This document shows, piece by piece, positions 25,081 to 35,642 of a stretch of 64,000 bases of DNA; the stretch's first letter is position 1; each line of letters begins with the position of its first letter. The notes beneath the pieces are model-generated. The model was not told the DNA's origin, made no database searches, and worked only from the letters and a program-made list of their open reading frames with translations. Both the position numbers and the translations under genes were made by a program. Source of the stretch: Diprion similis (lineage: Eukaryota; Arthropoda; Insecta; Hymenoptera; Diprionidae); assembly GCF_021155765.1 (NCBI RefSeq), contig NC_060114.1:9639001-9703000 (forward strand), in the 5' to 3' direction.

Positions 25081-28000
25081 TTAGAACAAGTAGAAGAATG
25101 ACTTTGCGAACATAATAACAAACAGTAGAACGGGCGACGAGAGTTGGTACAGGGCGCACGCACTCCCCTTCGAATCGTCGTTTTCGTTTTTCTGATTTTC
25201 CAACATCCCTACGCAAACATTACCGCAATCTTCCTCATCGCAGATATCGCACAGCGTAGCTTTCTGTGGTTCATAAAACACTCTGGCGCGTCGACCTGAA
25301 ATATAACAGATATATTAAGCAGTTTACACGTTATTCACTCTTATAATGCGATATTCTCCCACAAATTGCTGATCATAGTAAGCATATATGCAAAACGTCT
25401 TACTCGAGTCATAGTAGTCATAAATTGAGACTGGAACAGGCTTCTGTTTAGCAACCTTGTGGGTCCTGAACGCAGACACTGTTGGGCAATACTCCTCTCT
25501 TACCATCTGCGAATTTTTTTTACTAAATGATACTCCATAATGGATGGATAATAGTACATCGGTCCAGAACAATAGAGGTTCCATGCATTCAACGTCTTTT
25601 TCTCACCTAATTCATGACTCACAAATCGCTTACCTTGTCGAAGTACAAAACTACCATAGTGTCTCCATTTTTGGTCTCAACTCGCTTAACGTGTTGCGAT
25701 ATTTCCAAGCTTGGGAGGGAGTCAATGTCGACGGTAAATCCCGACGGTAGGCTTACTTCCATTACAGCCATGTTGCTCTCGTTCGCCTCTTTTGTAGGTA
25801 CGAATCTGGTTGAAGGGATATTGAATGTAATTAATTTTACTCTAATAGCTATCCTTTTGCTAATGCGACTTGTAGCATTTGTACATCAGACGTTTCACCG
25901 TACCCAGAGCAAATTGAAAGCTGCAAGTGATTCGCGTTTGAATTTTTATCCACTTGAGGGTCAAGGGTGAATAGGGGCCAGGCACCAGTGACATTCAGAT
26001 TGTAGCTGTACGACACTTGAATTATCGCAAATCCAGTGCCGGTAGCTGTCAGGTTCACCTCTCTAATTTTTCTGGGCAACTAAACGAGACAGGGAATGCG
26101 GTCAAAAATCTAGTCCCATATTTCTCAAGTAAAAAAATGGTGTGACAAACAAATATACCATATGCTTCTGAAGAATCATATTATTGCCTGGGTTGATATT
26201 TATGTTGGTTTGACCTCCGTCTTCGTAGACGAACGATATGGCGATGTTACTGTTCTTGGATGATATTTTTTCACTCAATTTGGATAGCGCATAAATTCCG
26301 ATTACCGTGTCCTGCAAATAAGGGACATCCCTCCAGTAAACGAAAAGTGCATTTTTATGTATACTATCGACCTGAAAAATTCTCATTTTCTCCATGAAAT
26401 TGGATGATAGTTGTTTCACAATCCTCACCAGACGTTATTTTATTCCATGAACACTAATATTTTCCATACTCATTTTCTTTAACTATTGTACTGCGTATCT
26501 GGTATAAGGATTTTTCACGTCAATGTTAGATAAAAGAGAAATATTGCAACTTGAAAAACAGTATTTCGCATTTGCGAACCTGGGTTGAGGCGAATCCTCC
26601 GTCCGCGTTTCTCTGGCTCACTAGCCACTTCATTATGGGAAGCGCATCTGCCATGTTTCTTTTGAGGTATGTAAGCAATGCGTATGAAGTCATTTCAACA
26701 TCTACGGAACTTGGTAACGAATACCAAGGATTCTTGTTGTCCTCTGGAATTGGTTTACTCCACCACTTGTAATCCCCGCTTTTTTTGGCCTTTGATTCCA
26801 ATCGATTAAATGCTGTGTCTTCGTAAGGATTCTTGGCTAAGTTTAAAACGTAGGTGCAAAGACAAAGCGAGTATACATCGTCGAGCCCGTCGAGATTCCG
26901 CACAATGTAATCGACTCCCTTGTTTACGACATTGCTGTATTCCTCGTAATAATCCTGCAAACGAGACACATTTTGTCGAATTTTTTTTCTTAAAATTTTT
27001 CTACCAGGTAACGCTGTTGGTCATTATCGATCTTACCCGATTTTCAAGGAAGGCTACCAAAGTGAATGCAGTCAATGCCAAGCCTTTGGCTGCGCCACCT
27101 TGCATGTCACGATGACTCACTTTTCCAACCTCAGGAAAGCTGCCGTTTGGTGACTGGTTGGCGGCGAGCCACTGGAGAGCTTCCTTTATAATTCGACCTT
27201 CTATCATAATGTGTTCTGCAGCCTGGGCAAATGACTTTGCCACAAATGCTGTCAGCCTACAACGGAATAAAAGTAGTAATCCAGATGATTACAACCCCTG
27301 TTTTAGGGCAGATGTCTGTTAGCTATATTGCTACTGACCATGTGCTGCCGCTGTGATCCGAGGTTCCAAACGCGCTAAAAGATCCGTCTTCGTGACGATA
27401 AGTCAACTCTTGCTGGTAACCAATTTCCATATATTTGAGTGCTTTTCCTTTAACCGCTTGCGTAAGTTGATCGGTGTTCTATAATGATGAATTACGTTCT
27501 GGATAAAAATGTCGACATGAATAAGGATTATTGGTAGAATTACACACCTTCAGATAGTTAATCACGACTATATTGGGGACAAAGTTGAGCATGTTTTGTT
27601 CTCCGCATCCAAATGGCATTTTGATTAAGTTCGCCAGATTCGGTATGCTGGGTCCAAGAATATCCCCTAAAATAAAGATCATAATGTCAGCTGGACAGTT
27701 TATTTCCCTATCTGCTTTCAACTCCCGCAAGTCTTGAATCCCAGGCAATATCTTACCGACGGCAGAAATTTCCACATGCTCAGAGCCCACTACAGCGTTT
27801 CTTGGTACATCTACTGTCAAGTTGGTCTCAAATTTATTCGCATTTCGCAGATCAACAAATATAGCCTTGTTCCGATATTGAGTTTCTCCTTCAGACTGGA
27901 AACCCATAAAGCTAATGAACCTCGGGAATATGTATATAAAAAATTATATTTGACCATTTTCAAATAAAATATTTTTTATAATATTTCTTAAACCTAGATT

Positions 28001-31000
28001 TACACGCTTTCGAATAAAACAAACTCCAATCGAAATCCGTAAAATATCGAGTTTTACCTTAACGAGTAGTTTCCGCTCGATGCCATCTCCAGCCAAAGTA
28101 CTGCGCGCAGTGGCCTTAATGACAATATGTCCCAAGTCCCTAGGAATAATCATGAAGGAAACAGACCCTTGCGCATTGGCCTTGATATCTATCGTCTTTC
28201 TGCGATATAGTTCCAGCTCTGCAGTAAGTAAATCAAATTTACTTGTTTATTTACGTCACAAATACATATTGCAGCACTTGCAACCCAATGTAGACTTACT
28301 TGGCGTGTCGTGGATCTCATTCGATATTTCAGCAAATTCAAACTGGTTCATGTTTTCCAATACGACCTCCGCTGTGAGATCCTTGTCCAGGTAATTGAAG
28401 ACTACGATGGGTATAGCAACAATCTCTCCTCGTATCACAGAGTACGGTAGATCAAGTGATATGAAAAACGGTTGAAAGACTTTCAGCTGAAACACACAAA
28501 TATCACATCTTATTGTTATTCACATTACTCGATTCCTAAATAACCGAGTGTCGAATGGAATACGTACCTTTCTTGGAGTGTCGATGAGACCCAACCCGTG
28601 AACAGAGTCAATGGAAAATGCAGTGAGCACCCAGGAGGTGATGGTGTCAGGAACGGACCGCCGGAGAACAGTTTTTCCTTCGGGGCTGTTACATTTAAAA
28701 AACTGTTTCAACATTTATCACCATTAGTGTAACGAATTTTATACTAATGAAAATGATTTGGAATAACCGATTGTGGGTGTAAATATAGCATGAAATGTGG
28801 AACGAACAATTGAAAAAAAAAACAAAAAAAGAAAGGATGAGGCACCGTATAACTACATGGATACGTAAGCGTGCAAGAAGACATAAATAAATACCCTGAA
28901 GAGAAATTCGCGAAAAGCCAGGTGTTTGAGATGTCATGCATTGGGAAAACATGGGGCTTGTTCCATACGGGGGTTGGAATGCGAGAGAAGGCGTAGGGAC
29001 CCGCCAATGGTGGTCTGGTTGCTACTCTGTACGTTACCGGTGGGCCGATGTCTGGCCTGAGTGTGGACACACCAGGATGGAAGCCATCTATTCTACCACC
29101 AACAACTCCTGGCTGGCCTGCAATCCAACTCTAACGATATAGGTAGGTAGAGAGGTCATATTATTTTCTCTTACTTCATGCTGAGCTTACACACCTCGTC
29201 ACTTATCGCGTTTATCTTTACATTATCAAGGCGAGCGTTGCCCTTATACCGGATAAATACGACAGTTATTACAAATTGAGATTCACACGGGGTTAGCGGT
29301 AGTGGGAAAGTTAGCACTTCGTTAGTTAAACACTTTCCGTTGCCGTAAGCGTCTATCTCCGCCACTTGCTTCATGAGACATTCATCTTTGATGATAAGAG
29401 AGAAAAACACAGGTGAAAATTTTATACACACATATATAGGTGTGCCTGTACACAATAGTATAGATATATATTAGGGTGGTCCTTATTTAAGGTAAGTGTC
29501 TCAATTATTGACTTCTTTTTGGTTGTATCTGGTTGATCCTTAGTTCTGAAATTACTAAAAAATAAATTTGTAGTGTCTGACCCTCTAGCAATTGGTTTTA
29601 GTCATCAAGAAATTCATAATTTGTGCCACTAATTTACAATTTTGGAAAATAAAAGGGTCAATAATTGGATCTAGCCGTGTCAATATTTGGAATATTTCAT
29701 CGGCTGCCCTCTAAATCGACTCTAAATAATTAAAAAACAATACCCTAATTTTTTCAGATTCTTATCTCAACTCTACCGACACCTGTCTTTAAGAGGGTGG
29801 ATATCCCCATTTAAAATACACGTGTTTTGGCTATATTCTCAGTAAATATTTTATTGTAAAAGTAATGATTTTCAAAAAAGTGTGTAACTGTGAGACTTTA
29901 GCTACTATCCTATAAAAAATTGCACACTCTCTAAATGGCTTTAAATAAGAAAAACGTGAGATCTAGAGGGTGTGCAATTCGTCTAGATTGCCTGGTATGA
30001 TGATATAAATTTTTTATTAGATAGCACCAATGCCCAATTAAGTCTCCCACTTACAGATTTTTCTGGAAATTATTACTCTTACAATAAAATATATACTGAG
30101 AAACAAAATCCACCCTTTTACAGGCAGAGATTAGAGTTGAGTAAAAAGTCAGAAAATTAGAGAATTATTTTTGAATTATTTGGGGGGGTGAATAATAAAA
30201 AAATTCGTCTGAGGCCCGAACAAGGACCACCCTAATATATATATGTACACACTTTTGGAGAATTCATCTCGTTTGACCTGATGGTAGAAAATCATTGACC
30301 GTTGCTGTTCATTTTCATAACTTATTTCCCAGTAGTACCGTCAGAATGAGTATTAAACAGTCTGATCATTCACTAATGACTTCAAATTGATCAGAGATGT
30401 GGATGTTAAGGATTTTTCCAAGGATTCTAAGATTTTCCGCACATTTTCTGGCACTTATAATAGCATTGATTGCAAAAAGTTGGCAGTTTGGATGCTGCAG
30501 GCTTCATTTATTCCGAGCGCCGATACATTTGATCAAATTGAGAAACGCCTACCTGTAACAACACTTATTTGACGCTACCCTTGCGAAAGTAGATTCTGGA
30601 AAAATGTCTGAGCGACAATCCTCCGTCATTAGGTTTAATACAAAAAAACGTTCAACCAGTATATGTATACACTTATATACATATACTATACCTAAGCCTG
30701 TATAGATATTGTGTATATGGAAAGATTGAATTGTGAAGCATTAAGAAGTTAAACTCATGAAACGATCTTTTGCAGCAAACGGCCCTTATGATCGGGTCCA
30801 AGATGAACCGAAATAATCAAGAATCCGTTCACCAAACTGAGGGGAGTCGTGGAATGTAATCAATTAATTGTCGCCATACCCAGCATCAAGCATTTGCCAA
30901 AGCCAGGTTTCAGGGAAGTTCTTGCGCACTTTCAGTTTCCCAGGTTGGACTGTAGTCGGGTCGGGGCTCGCCGCCGCACTTTCATACATCACTCCGTCGA

Positions 31001-34000
31001 AATTAGCTCTGAGGTATACTATGCAATATGTTCTATGTTATGTAACAAGTGGGAGGGTATCATTATTATTGTAATAGGCAGGTGGTAAACCAAGTCCCCG
31101 AGAAACATTTACGACTTTCTTTCCCTCAACGGAAGATCTGAATTTTCATATTGAGTATACGATTTTCATAATTCGTCTTGTTGTTCATGCAACATAAGTT
31201 TTCAAAAGATTGAGAACTTAGCAAGACACTTTTAAACACGTAAAGTCAATATATTCGCCATTCACATTGGACCCCTAGCGATTTGTTTTTCTGAAGTATT
31301 AATATGAATGCATAGTGTTGAAGTATTTTGGTCAAAAAATGATTCCCGACATAGAAACGTGCGGTGTAAAATAACGTTTGATAATCTTAGAATTTGCCGA
31401 ACTAAGTGAAAAAACTGTTTTTAAAACATTTCATCAGAAAATTCCAAAGTTACCGCAAAATTGGTAAAGCCATTAGGTGTGAATTTTGTGCCAAAGTAAA
31501 TGACAGCTACAAATATTAAGATGGCATTTTACTTTCGAGTATCTGAAACATAAGAACTGAGAATACGGTGGGTAAAGATCACTTGTAATTGTGTACATGT
31601 GTGGAAAAAAAATCGTCTTGGATTCCGTCTTAAACGAGCACTTGGTTGTCACATGTACCTATATCTATACATGCCAGGTTATTGCACATGAATACAAGTT
31701 TATTATACTATTGCAGAGAGCATTGGCACTTATTGGAGAAGCAATTTAAACATTTATATATACTTATACCACTTTGAAATTGTGATGGAAAACTTACTGA
31801 GTGGGAAAATATCGTGGACGTAGCCATTGGTCAGGATAACTGCGCCAGATTTCTGGAATAAAATTATTTGGACATAATTTTCAACAGTATCTTTGCTTTT
31901 TGTCAAGTTTAAAGACAGGTTTGTCTGTAAAACGTTATACATACATCGAAGACATCGAACGCAGAAGATGATCCAGGGCTCCAAGAAGAACTACCCCATG
32001 CCGGAAAAACGGATGAAAACTCATTGTTCATATCGTATGACTTCAGTTCGTTTAATATTTGGTCCTGCAAACGGAATTTCGAAATTGCAAACATTCAAGC
32101 AATTGGAGATATAACACCTGTTGGAATGCGTTTGTTGTTAGCCAACCCGATACAGCTCATCAAAGACATGGATTTATTTACACATTTGACAAAATGTATT
32201 TTAGACAAACAGTTACCGATTTACGGAATCTTTTTTATTATATATAACAATATAATTTTGGCACAGGCTCGCATTTGTTTAAAGATATGCCCCCATTTTA
32301 CGCATCCAGAAAACTGAATTACATAAATACTTTGTGGTAAGATGACTAAAATTGCATCTTTATAAAAGAGTATTATCCTCCTCTCTATACAAATGTGCGG
32401 TATTGGTTTGGTTTTCCTCTCTTTTTTTTCAATATGCCGTCGGAACTGTTTATACAAGAAATTCAACCGTACTTGATGCATTGAATACTCACATGTGATA
32501 TATCATTGCCGGACTTCAATAGAATTGAACTTTGATCAACACCAAGAAGTGCAATATAAGAATTTGGCTTTGATGAGATAACAAGATCGACGTTACCTCC
32601 AGGTGACGTTTCATTGGGCATAGTTTTGATGTCAACCTGCAACAGCAAAAATTCGACCAAATTACCGTCATGTTGCATGTTTTTTGCAGTCAAGATGAAG
32701 ATATTCTTTACTTTACTATTTCATTGTGTTAAGAATTCAATTTTTTACGTACAAAATTTTGAAGTGCGCCGTCTAGGTCTACGTTAAGGGAATCAGCAAC
32801 TATCTCTCCGTCTTCGCGCATGTAATAGACCACTATGTGCGCTGTTGGCGCCATCACGTACGTGGCAAGGAATCTATGGGTACGAATAAAATATGTAGAA
32901 AGATTTACTTTTGAAATAGAACACCAGCACCGTCGCAGCTAGATGATATCTCACTTAAATTTGACAGTGTATTCCTCTGGGACTTTGACAGAACCTGCAT
33001 TGAGTATGTCGCCTCGTCCCAATACTTGGTAGCTCAGATATTTGAGAGGTGCTGTGGAATTTACTTCGACTTCGATGTTACTGTTTACCTAATCAAAGTA
33101 TACCATTTTTTCACATTCTAGGATAGAATTTTTGAGCACATATTTTTGGGAAAAATCGTTCACACTTACCACAGGGTTCTCGGACTTCAAAAGTGCTTGT
33201 ATGTAAGTTCCGCTCGGTGACAGAGCTCGATTTATTGAAGAAAACCACTCGTGCAAAGTCAAGTATTGTGCCTTTATAAAAACCCAATTTATTCTTCCGG
33301 TAAGTGTATCAACTAATAGATATCAATTATTCCGAAGCAATTTAGAGCTGTGTGAATAACAACATACCTCAATATTCAATGGGGCTGAGGTATCATTTGC
33401 CGCGAGGGGTGGGTAAAAATCCAACTGTATCATTCCATGTTTGTCAAGCATGCGAGTAATGTTGGTGTAGGAAGATTGATCGTAACTGAAACCGTACCAT
33501 ATTTGTACTGGATTTGTCTGATCCTGGACAGGTGATCCGTCGTGATAAGCGATTTTTATCTGCAAAATAATGCCATTTCCTTTATAAATACACAAAGGTT
33601 TTGTTTAAGGGAAATTGACATCTGCCTTGCATGGACAATCGTAATATGCGCATATACGATTATCCGACTTTTGCCATAGATTTAATTTATCCTTTATTCA
33701 AGCGATTATACGTTCATATTCAGCCAAGATACATCCAGCGTCAATAAAGAGTCAGAACAATACGTCATACTTTCCCATATCGATTATATCTGGTTATGTA
33801 ACTTACAAACGCAGTGTATTTCAAGCCCGGCTTATAGCTTTCTGCTGTTTTCACGAGTTCCATTGTATATTTATGCTTGTGCAATATCATCTGCGCAGAG
33901 GTGTTTTGTATGCGGCCAGTCAATGCCTCCTTGACAGCTACTTCCAATTGTATAGGTCGTTCGTAATCGTCCGTAAGCCTGTGAACGAAAATTTTCAATC

Positions 34001-35642
34001 ATTGACAATTCATTGATGCCGTAAGACCTGCAAAACTGTAAACAACAATCCCTCGAGTTGCCTATAGGTAACTTCACTGCCAGAAGTATGTACAATAATA
34101 TAAAACTGTGGCTTTGTCGCATTAGGATCACCTCAGTTCGTTGCCAATGTCGAAATTCACTGTAACATTTCCATCTATAGGCACCACTTTCCGGACCGGC
34201 GCTTGAAATATCGGTTGGATAACCCCAGAAAATATATCTGGGTATGCCGTGATGGTCGCTTCCCCTTTTACCGGTTTGCCATAGGTGTATCTGAAATGTT
34301 TAAATCGAATTATTATGAGCAATGATTTTGAGAAGTTACCGACGATTTCATTTTTTCGGAGATATCGAAGCCTGACGTTGCCATGTCTGGGACTAGAAGT
34401 GCAAAGAGTATCGCTACAAAAATATGAAAATTTCATCACCTAGCACGAACGGTCGCGGTCACAGAGGAGTCTTTGAAGGTAGCATGTTTCGGTACGTCGA
34501 TGACCACCTCAAATTTAGGTAGAACATATTCAGCAACTTCAAATTGCTTTTCAAAAGTTTGGTCCAATATGTTGATAAAGATCTTCCAATTTCCTAGTAC
34601 CGGTGAGTCCGAGAGCTGCAGTTCTCCGACAAAGACACCTTTACTATCCGTGCGTCGTTTCCACTGTTTGATTCGGTTGCCCTGACCGTCCTGGCAAAGA
34701 GATTCAAATAATTTTAGTCAATGGTCAAGTTATGTAGAGAGTATCTCTAATCGAGTCGAAAAATTATATTCTTTAAGGATCATCTGATTTAACTTAGATT
34801 AATTACCGTTATGTATATATCTAATTCAGCGATGCTTAACGGAGGGCGGAGCCTCGAGTCCAGTATTACAGTGCGAAACAAGACTTTGCTACCAGGTTTA
34901 TAGACCGCTCGATCAGTCTGCACAAAAACCGAGTAGCTTTTGTGAACGTATCGAAGATCGGTAGAGTTAGAAAATATGATCCCAGCAAGTCCTCGGGATA
35001 CCAACTTGTAATTTCCAGGCGTCGTATCTCCAACCTACAGAGGAGAACATTTTCGCAACTGTTTAAAACATTATTACTTTTCTCTCTCCTTCCCATTTTC
35101 TATGATACTTTGGATCATGTTGTCATTTTCATTCTCATTTTGTAGTAACAAAAGTATCAGTTGAAGGATCGCAAAAAGAAGAGCATGATTGGAACAAACC
35201 TCAAGCCTGACAATACGAGTTGAATAAGGTTCCACTGTGATAGTCTGGGAGACATTAAAGAAATTTCCAGAGTCCAAATCTCCGTTCAACTCTATGTAAA
35301 TAGTGGACGGCTGGGATATCTCTGTTGTCCCAACAGCTACGTGATATTCCGAGTTTGGTCTGACAACTTTTGGTCCTATAACCGTGTAGTACCTTTGAAG
35401 AGAAATATCTGTGAGATGCGAGCAATAAAACATACAATGACGTGTTCGTCGATGATATTATTTTGTGCAATTGAAGACGCTGTGAAGAATTATCTCTATT
35501 CTTTATGGAAGACACGATCGTCTTGTACCCGACAGAACCACGATACATAGCTGATGACTGAAAATAAATGTACGTACGGAGAAGGTGTTACGGTAGCAAT
35601 TGTCCCCAGCATTACCAGTAACGGTGGCCATAGTGTGTCCAT
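25081..35642 (-). CDS. CD109: Thioester-containing protein, CD109/alpha-2-macroglobulin family, about 1450 aa
   Basis: 27 exons per transcript on the minus strand, from ATG 35642. Exons: 35578-35642, 35200-35392, 34807-35034, 34440-34690, 34132-34290, 33807-33978, 33368-33559, 33170-33271, 32955-33088, 32753-32873, 32493-32636, 31945-32064, 31798-31852, one variable exon, 28568-28685, 28300-28486, 28058-28218, 27757-27895, 27548-27666, 27339-27478, 27037-27256, 26580-26954, 26159-26311, 25904-26079, 25634-25805, 25404-25506, 25081-25295. Order: signal peptide, macroglobulin domains ([15 protein letters not shown]), Ser-rich bait region, [14 protein letters not shown], thioester motif GCGEQ (27596-27610), helical thioester domain, receptor-binding domain, Cys-rich [13 protein letters not shown] and a hydrophobic end. 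These proteins bond covalently to microbes or proteases and act in insect immunity. The hydrophobic tail suggests a GPI anchor, as in CD109. Confidence 0.93.
28895..29117 (-). CDS. TEP variable exon D (TWLF type)
   Basis: 223 bp, acceptor GGATTGCAG, donor GG|GTATTT, with the same entry and exit phases as exon A. The peptide is Gly/Pro-rich and ends [14 protein letters not shown], aligning with the TWLW block of exon A. Used instead of A it would give a protein of about 1478 residues with a longer, proline-rich bait segment. Confidence 0.68.
29175..29385 (-). CDS. TEP variable exon C (candidate, cysteine-rich, no TWLW)
   Basis: 211 bp with a strong pyrimidine tract and acceptor (TCTCTTATCATCAAAG) and a strong donor (AA|GTAAGAG). 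Phases at both ends equal those of exons A and D. The peptide has four cysteines ([20 protein letters not shown] at its start) and no TWLW block. It could be a third alternative exon, an alternative terminal exon (TAA follows at once if unspliced), or part of an unrelated nested gene. Confidence 0.45.
29471..30235. mobile_element. Fold-back DNA element (MITE) with long inverted repeats
   Basis: The element begins TTAGGGTGGTCCTTATT and ends with the inverse (AACAAGGACCACCCTAA), flanked on both sides by TA-rich sequence that could include a TA target duplication. Inverted similarity continues far inside: TCTCAGTAAATATTTTATTG near 29840 pairs with sequence near 30090, and TTGCACACTCTC near 29923 pairs with GGTGTGCAA near 29970. 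The whole element is thus an imperfect palindrome of about 765 bp. It has no coding capacity. It lies in the TEP intron between variable exons C and A. Confidence 0.75.
30240..30879. other. Rest of TEP variable-exon intron with an orphan plus-strand open frame
   Basis: Between the fold-back element and exon A. The plus strand is open at about 30363-30572 (peptide core [19 protein letters not shown], ending at TGA), preceded by an AG. I do not recognise it. It may be a fragment of a processed gene or element. No further TWLW-type exon was found on the minus strand. Confidence 0.25.
30880..31018 (-). CDS. TEP variable exon A (TWLW type)
   Basis: 139 bp, with acceptor ATTGCATAG and donor GG|GTATGG. 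It enters with two bases and leaves with two, so it fits between exon 31798-31852 (which ends with one spare base) and exon 28568-28685 (which needs one base). It encodes a variable stretch then [14 protein letters not shown], the conserved post-bait block of the family. This is the most standard choice and gives a 1450-aa protein. Confidence 0.8.

Follow-up and report, generated by a model that had tools for sequence, protein, structure and literature searches.

Alternative exons in the bait region of thioester proteins are known from several invertebrate lineages. In Drosophila melanogaster, alternative use of exon 5 of Tep2 gives five isoforms that differ in a hypervariable, bait-like region (PMC5489563, PMC2685406). 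BgTEP2 of the snail Biomphalaria glabrata has 12 mutually exclusive exons in which C-terminal residues are conserved, and the A2M and BgCD109 of this snail vary as well (PMC7016707). In the scallop Chlamys farreri, CfTEP has six mutually exclusive exons, and its isoforms vary with tissue and challenge (cited in PMC7016707). For Daphnia pulex Dappu-TEP2, extra putative coding exons were read from genome sequence at the same place (PMC2685406), and bait-exon alternatives are also reported for shrimp A2M-2 and tick A2M (PMC7016707, PMC2685406, PMC5489563). Here we describe a gene of this kind on the minus strand of a 64,000-nucleotide stretch of the genome of the hymenopteran Diprion similis (contig NC_060114.1, positions 9,639,001 to 9,703,000; hereafter the window). 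The gene is a homologue of CD109 and the insect TEPs, and it very likely carries two alternative bait exons, which we call A and D, with a more doubtful third candidate, C.

The gene adds one more case to the known genes with alternative bait exons. An earlier note on this DNA had compared it with Drosophila Tep2, and the comparison is right in kind: both are insect TEPs with alternative bait-region exons, five versions there, two firm ones and one candidate here. BgTEP2 and BgCD109 resemble it in their tandem exons of varied length and composition and in a conserved C-terminal part such as A and D possess, but the snail exons are far more numerous and have been seen in transcripts, whereas the window gene is known from genome sequence alone. 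CfTEP follows the same kind of splicing in a mollusc, with six exons and isoforms found in transcripts. Dappu-TEP2 has its extra exons in the matching place, likewise read from the genome, and their alternative use is suspected. Human CD109 and Anopheles TEP1 (AgTEP1), the best matches among solved structures, are alike in sequence, a comparison that has no bearing on alternative bait exons in their genes.

The window gene was not recognised in the literature searched, which was covered in part. Within the excerpts consulted, no bait-exon case was found in PMC5691223 (Hymenoptera, CD109, thioester, alternative splicing), and those of PMC1847501, PMC12939704 and PMC5989330 held no further case, apart from citing the tick and scallop papers. 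Since bait-exon choice is already known in flies, snails, scallops, shrimp and ticks, the value of the present gene is comparative. It is a small and clean case, with two firm exons, one of them diverged, and a phase that is common to a paralogue with a single bait exon.

Phase of the constant exons and cassettes

The two constant exons that flank the bait interval, and the cassettes between them, are given here in the order of transcription.

31798 to 31852, minus strand: upstream constant exon; the best join uses the acceptor at 31852, the donor at 31797 is GTAAGT, and one base (A) is left over
30880 to 31018, minus strand: bait exon A, 139 nucleotides (nt) as named; ends with a split glycine codon, GG/gt
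29175 to 29385, minus strand: candidate exon C, 211 nt; four cysteines, no TWL block
29118 to 29174, minus strand: spacer between C and D, 57 nt
28895 to 29117, minus strand: bait exon D, 223 nt; of its 75 residues 12 are prolines; ends with a split glycine codon, GG/gt
28568 to 28685, minus strand: downstream constant exon; its start needs one base

The earlier note had proposed that the exon ending at 31798 leaves one spare base, that the exon starting at 28685 needs one, and that exactly one of A, C and D restores the frame. Coordinates and phases were confirmed. The cassettes of 139, 211 and 223 nt are all 1 mod 3, and each is preceded by AG and followed by GT. When the eight combinations were translated, A, C or D alone stayed in the upstream frame into the constant exon. 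Joining the constant exons without any cassette shifts the frame, yet leaves it open to the end of the downstream constant exon; the joins AC, AD, CD and ACD shift it and reach a stop at codon 65, 72, 96 and 65, respectively, of the joined piece (counted from 0). The arrangement is the one expected of mutually exclusive bait exons, namely tandem cassettes of the same phase, any one of which alone restores the frame.

The flanking constant exons lie 3,112 nt apart, while the 20 other placed introns of the gene measure 69 to 428 nt with a median of 94 (n=20; one failed join and the two bait joins are left out of this set). All 20 exceed the 57-nt spacer that separates C from D.

Splice sites were scored with a consensus matrix, which is good for ranking sites and is uncalibrated. 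Among the in-phase starts, of which the following are examples from a longer listing, the acceptors for A score -2.7 bits at 31018, -4.2 at 31006 and -0.8 at 30949 (70 nt); those for C score 3.4 at 29445 (271 nt) and 0.2 at 29385, and those for D 0.9 at 29117 and -1.4 at 29108. All the alternative starts listed are again 1 mod 3, so that the phase rule stands and the cassette lengths are provisional. The 5' end of exon A is uncertain; a weak alignment with AgTEP1 spans the first half of the exon, which mildly favours its long form.

A and D as probable versions of one bait exon

Both A and D end in a TWL(W/F) block, as the earlier note had pointed out, and in both the block stands nine codons ahead of the split glycine codon. 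Read on both strands, the 74 kb of the window and L019 contain five matches to the DNA pattern T-W-(F/L/I/M/V)-(F/L/C/W), and GG/GT follows at the right distance in two of these five matches, which are A and D. By this register A and D stand above chance. Placed before the same constant exon, A yields a PF00207 score of 38.5 bits, D 35.0 and C 29.1. At the DNA level the last 60 bases of A bear a modest likeness to D (7 of 500 shuffles as good), and a repeat, D2, pairs 28914-28934 in exon D with 30899-30919 in exon A. The codon score of D, 0.160 bits per codon, falls inside the range of the constant exon cores (0.06-0.41).

The FPETW/TWL block is present in exon A, the paralogue, AgTEP1 and CD109. 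FPETWIW of human CD109 and FQESWLW of Anopheles TEP1 align with exon A, and the corresponding ends read SYRTNFQESWLWKNVSIG in AgTEP1 and HVRKHFPETWIWLDTNMG in CD109. In a free protein alignment of A with the bait exon of the paralogue, none of 1000 shuffles did as well. Judged by register, A and D are homologous, and C shows no such homology.

Several observations weigh on the other side. In free local protein alignment 184 of 1000 shuffles are as good as A against D, and 486 of 1000 as good as D against the paralogue; this alignment of D is not significant, and the case for D therefore stands on register. D is without the FPE residues ahead of TW. Among 2,000 shuffles of D an open frame persists in 13.65%, and in 1% it is coupled with codon usage as coding-like as that of D; one of its antisense frames scores above D itself (0.257, with one stop). 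The acceptor of A is weak, and A would fail the splice cut-off of the background cassette count described below. With these points taken into account, the window probably holds a CD109-like thioester gene in which A and D are versions of one ancestral bait exon and exactly one of them is spliced in. The phase-locked bait exons of the earlier note are thus well supported for A and D, on the strength of frame, register, the shared split glycine, the phase of the paralogue and the enlarged interval; C, which has its open frame, codon usage and phase in its favour, is weaker.

Paralogues and the origin of the phase

When the genome (60 contigs, 269 Mb) was searched with the A2M and thioester families, the results pointed to three such genes, that of the window included. 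A TEP paralogue with GCGEQ lies on contig C9 near 1.48 Mb. It has a single bait exon (C9:1481191-1481014, boundaries picked by eye) of 178 nt, again 1 mod 3 and in frame between the neighbouring exons, and this exon ends FPETWLWELVQTG / TIRSYFPETWLWELVQTG, with the same split glycine codon GG/gt as A and D. The flanking introns of 81 and 108 nt leave little room for more exons. Because the paralogue has the same phase and the same end, the phase of the bait exon is probably ancestral and was inherited by the window gene. Sharing it with a single-exon paralogue suggests that a one-of-n rule came with the phase and need not evolve anew.

The third gene of the family (L020 3209-7261, on C9 near 3.35 Mb) has one open frame of 1,350 amino acids, long and intron-free, unlike the window gene with its numerous short exons. 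In this protein DAAEQ replaces the thioester, and a cysteine-rich segment occupies the bait position; by eye it resembles the LDLa segment found in macroglobulin complement-related proteins.

Candidate exon C and rival explanations

Exon C may be a real third alternative, a four-cysteine module that would take the place of the bait and the TWL strand, although we lean slightly against it. It is phase-compatible with both constant exons and contains 69 stop-free codons, while the other two sense frames hold 11 and 8 stops. Its codon score of 0.165 bits per codon lies in the range of the 23 constant exon cores, its GC content is 44% against 33% in introns, and its cysteine count of four is even. 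Of 2,000 shuffles of C, 0.4% are open and 0.05% are open and as coding-like; shuffling the whole interval 300 times, with laxer splice cut-offs, gave a cassette of at least 211 nt in 6.7% of cases. On the other side, C is without the TWL block, so that its use would remove the FPETW/TWL block that A, the paralogue, AgTEP1 and CD109 have, and it is unlike A, D and the paralogue (at the DNA level 331 of 500 shuffles are as good against A). A background of 125,800 strand-bases contained 10 open phase-compatible cassettes, 200-400 nt long, whose acceptor and donor both scored at least 0, six of them with a codon score of at least 0.16. The stricter class amounts to 0.148 per 3,112 strand-bases, a figure that may overstate chance because some of the counted cassettes may be real exons of other genes. 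By this count C does not stand clearly above chance. C has nothing in Pfam or NCBIfam and no convincing sequence match in the PDB (best E 0.027, to a calcium-binding protein), and a structure model of C alone is poor (predicted local distance difference test, pLDDT, 59.8). It is distinctly unlikely, in our estimate, that C is real and that its isoform, instead of being a trap cut by proteases, would fold differently and act as a receptor or bind a ligand while keeping the thioester scaffold. When C was compared with viral contigs, a single match appeared, among stop-rich frames, which looks like chance; five pattern matches of D to viral contigs were found and none was confirmed.

The locus could also be read as one in which A is the sole working bait exon, D an old copy, out of use or in decay, and C an open stretch due to chance. 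A is the only one of the three to keep the full FPETWLW block, the overall similarity of D is weak, C-like cassettes occur at about 0.15 per 3,112 background strand-bases, and neither C nor D has another match in a search of its own genome. Yet D is intact: it is stop-free, has AG, GT and the right phase, and carries TWLF and the glycine in exact register, and the rarity of open shuffles of C together with the stops in its other sense frames speaks against a chance stretch. We regard this explanation as unlikely. Less probable again, by a clear step, is that C ends in the stop that overlaps its donor (AAG TAA), in which case the product would be no bait isoform but a truncated protein or a transcript destined for decay. 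The frame of C does stay open up to CKLSMK-stop, immediately beyond the donor, but no AATAAA is seen by eye in the 57-nt spacer ahead of D, and C is also in phase with 28685. Many donors of the phase of C would be expected to have a stop that overlaps GTAA, which counts against a stop-ended C. Least credible of all, to the point of being very improbable, is the use of two or more cassettes together through other splice sites: A, C and D each have other in-phase acceptors, but with the listed starts of the same phase pairs would still shift the frame, and the two- and three-cassette joins run into stops.

Proposed mechanism and significance

The constant exons demand an insert of 1 mod 3, and either A or D would be spliced in, each entering after the one spare base and leaving two bases for the next exon. 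Only one of them would be used, since skipping or doubling shifts the frame and doubling also meets a stop. A (some 47 residues, given a start at 31018) or D (about 75 and proline-rich) would present a different exposed, protease-cuttable stretch and bring its own copy of the TWL strand leading into the constant A2M domain, and the conserved thioester would be triggered when a protease cuts the bait in use. C is a possible third alternative. The 57-nt gap between C and D, being below all placed introns, might hinder their joining; for A, at a distance of about 1.5 kb from C, steric hindrance cannot account for exclusion. From the sequence we infer the splicing choice and mutual exclusion, the decay of wrong products, the cutting and an immune role. 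If the gene is spliced in this way, it would produce, from one locus, thioester proteins that differ in protease sensitivity, and it would broaden recognition in an animal without antibodies.

Family and architecture of the gene

25634 to 35385, minus strand: core of the CD109/TEP gene, with that of exon A counted among its 24 exon cores

The chain of exon cores yields MG2, MG3, A2M_BRD, A2M, TED_complement and A2M_recep in this order, all over the cut-off. The gene model leaves out the first and last exons, and the join from 33807 to 33574 is without placement. Among solved structures the bit scores are 609 for human CD109, 515 for AgTEP1, 407 for A2M and 233 for C3, and by this measure the gene is nearer to CD109/TEP than to A2M or C3. 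The thioester motif GCGEQ is read as PFGCGEQNM, and VSHRDMQGG, with a histidine about 100 residues on, is read as well; we take this residue to be the catalytic histidine. At the 3' end of the gene (25081-25314) an open frame holds, judged by eye, a cysteine cluster and a hydrophobic tail, and the tail may be a glycosylphosphatidylinositol (GPI) anchor signal as in CD109.

Repeats and further cassettes in the bait interval

The intron between A and C contains a stretch of about 790 nt (29458-30248) with 30-nt inverted ends that are 90% complementary (core AGGGTGGTCCTTATT) and an inner inverted repeat of 63 nt. Of 792 candidate places in the genome 40 were scored, and 39 sites elsewhere match parts of the stretch. 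Most of these matches cover only about 190 bases (29487-29685) at 81-86% identity; on contig C3, near 14.77 Mb, a longer part is matched at 71%. The stretch may represent a DNA transposon of the non-autonomous type, one end of which carries a dispersed repeat. With about 790 nt between inverted ends, and about 190 of dispersed repeat, the length of the interval is not all due to exons.

When the interval was scanned, the open phase-compatible cassettes of 120 nt or more fell into five distinct groups, compared with a mean of 0.55 and a maximum of 3 in 300 shuffles. The plus strand of the interval also yields five raw cassettes of 127-178 nt, which makes cassette counts weak evidence. The motif scan found no TWL block in the cassettes 31401-31266 and 29576-29432. 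The cassette 30697-30553, which contains the letters IFPES, was set aside: its codon score is -0.44 bits per codon, and for 30740-30530 against A at the DNA level 239 of 500 shuffles are as good. The segment 30553-30697 may be due to chance or may be a very old remnant of a bait exon.

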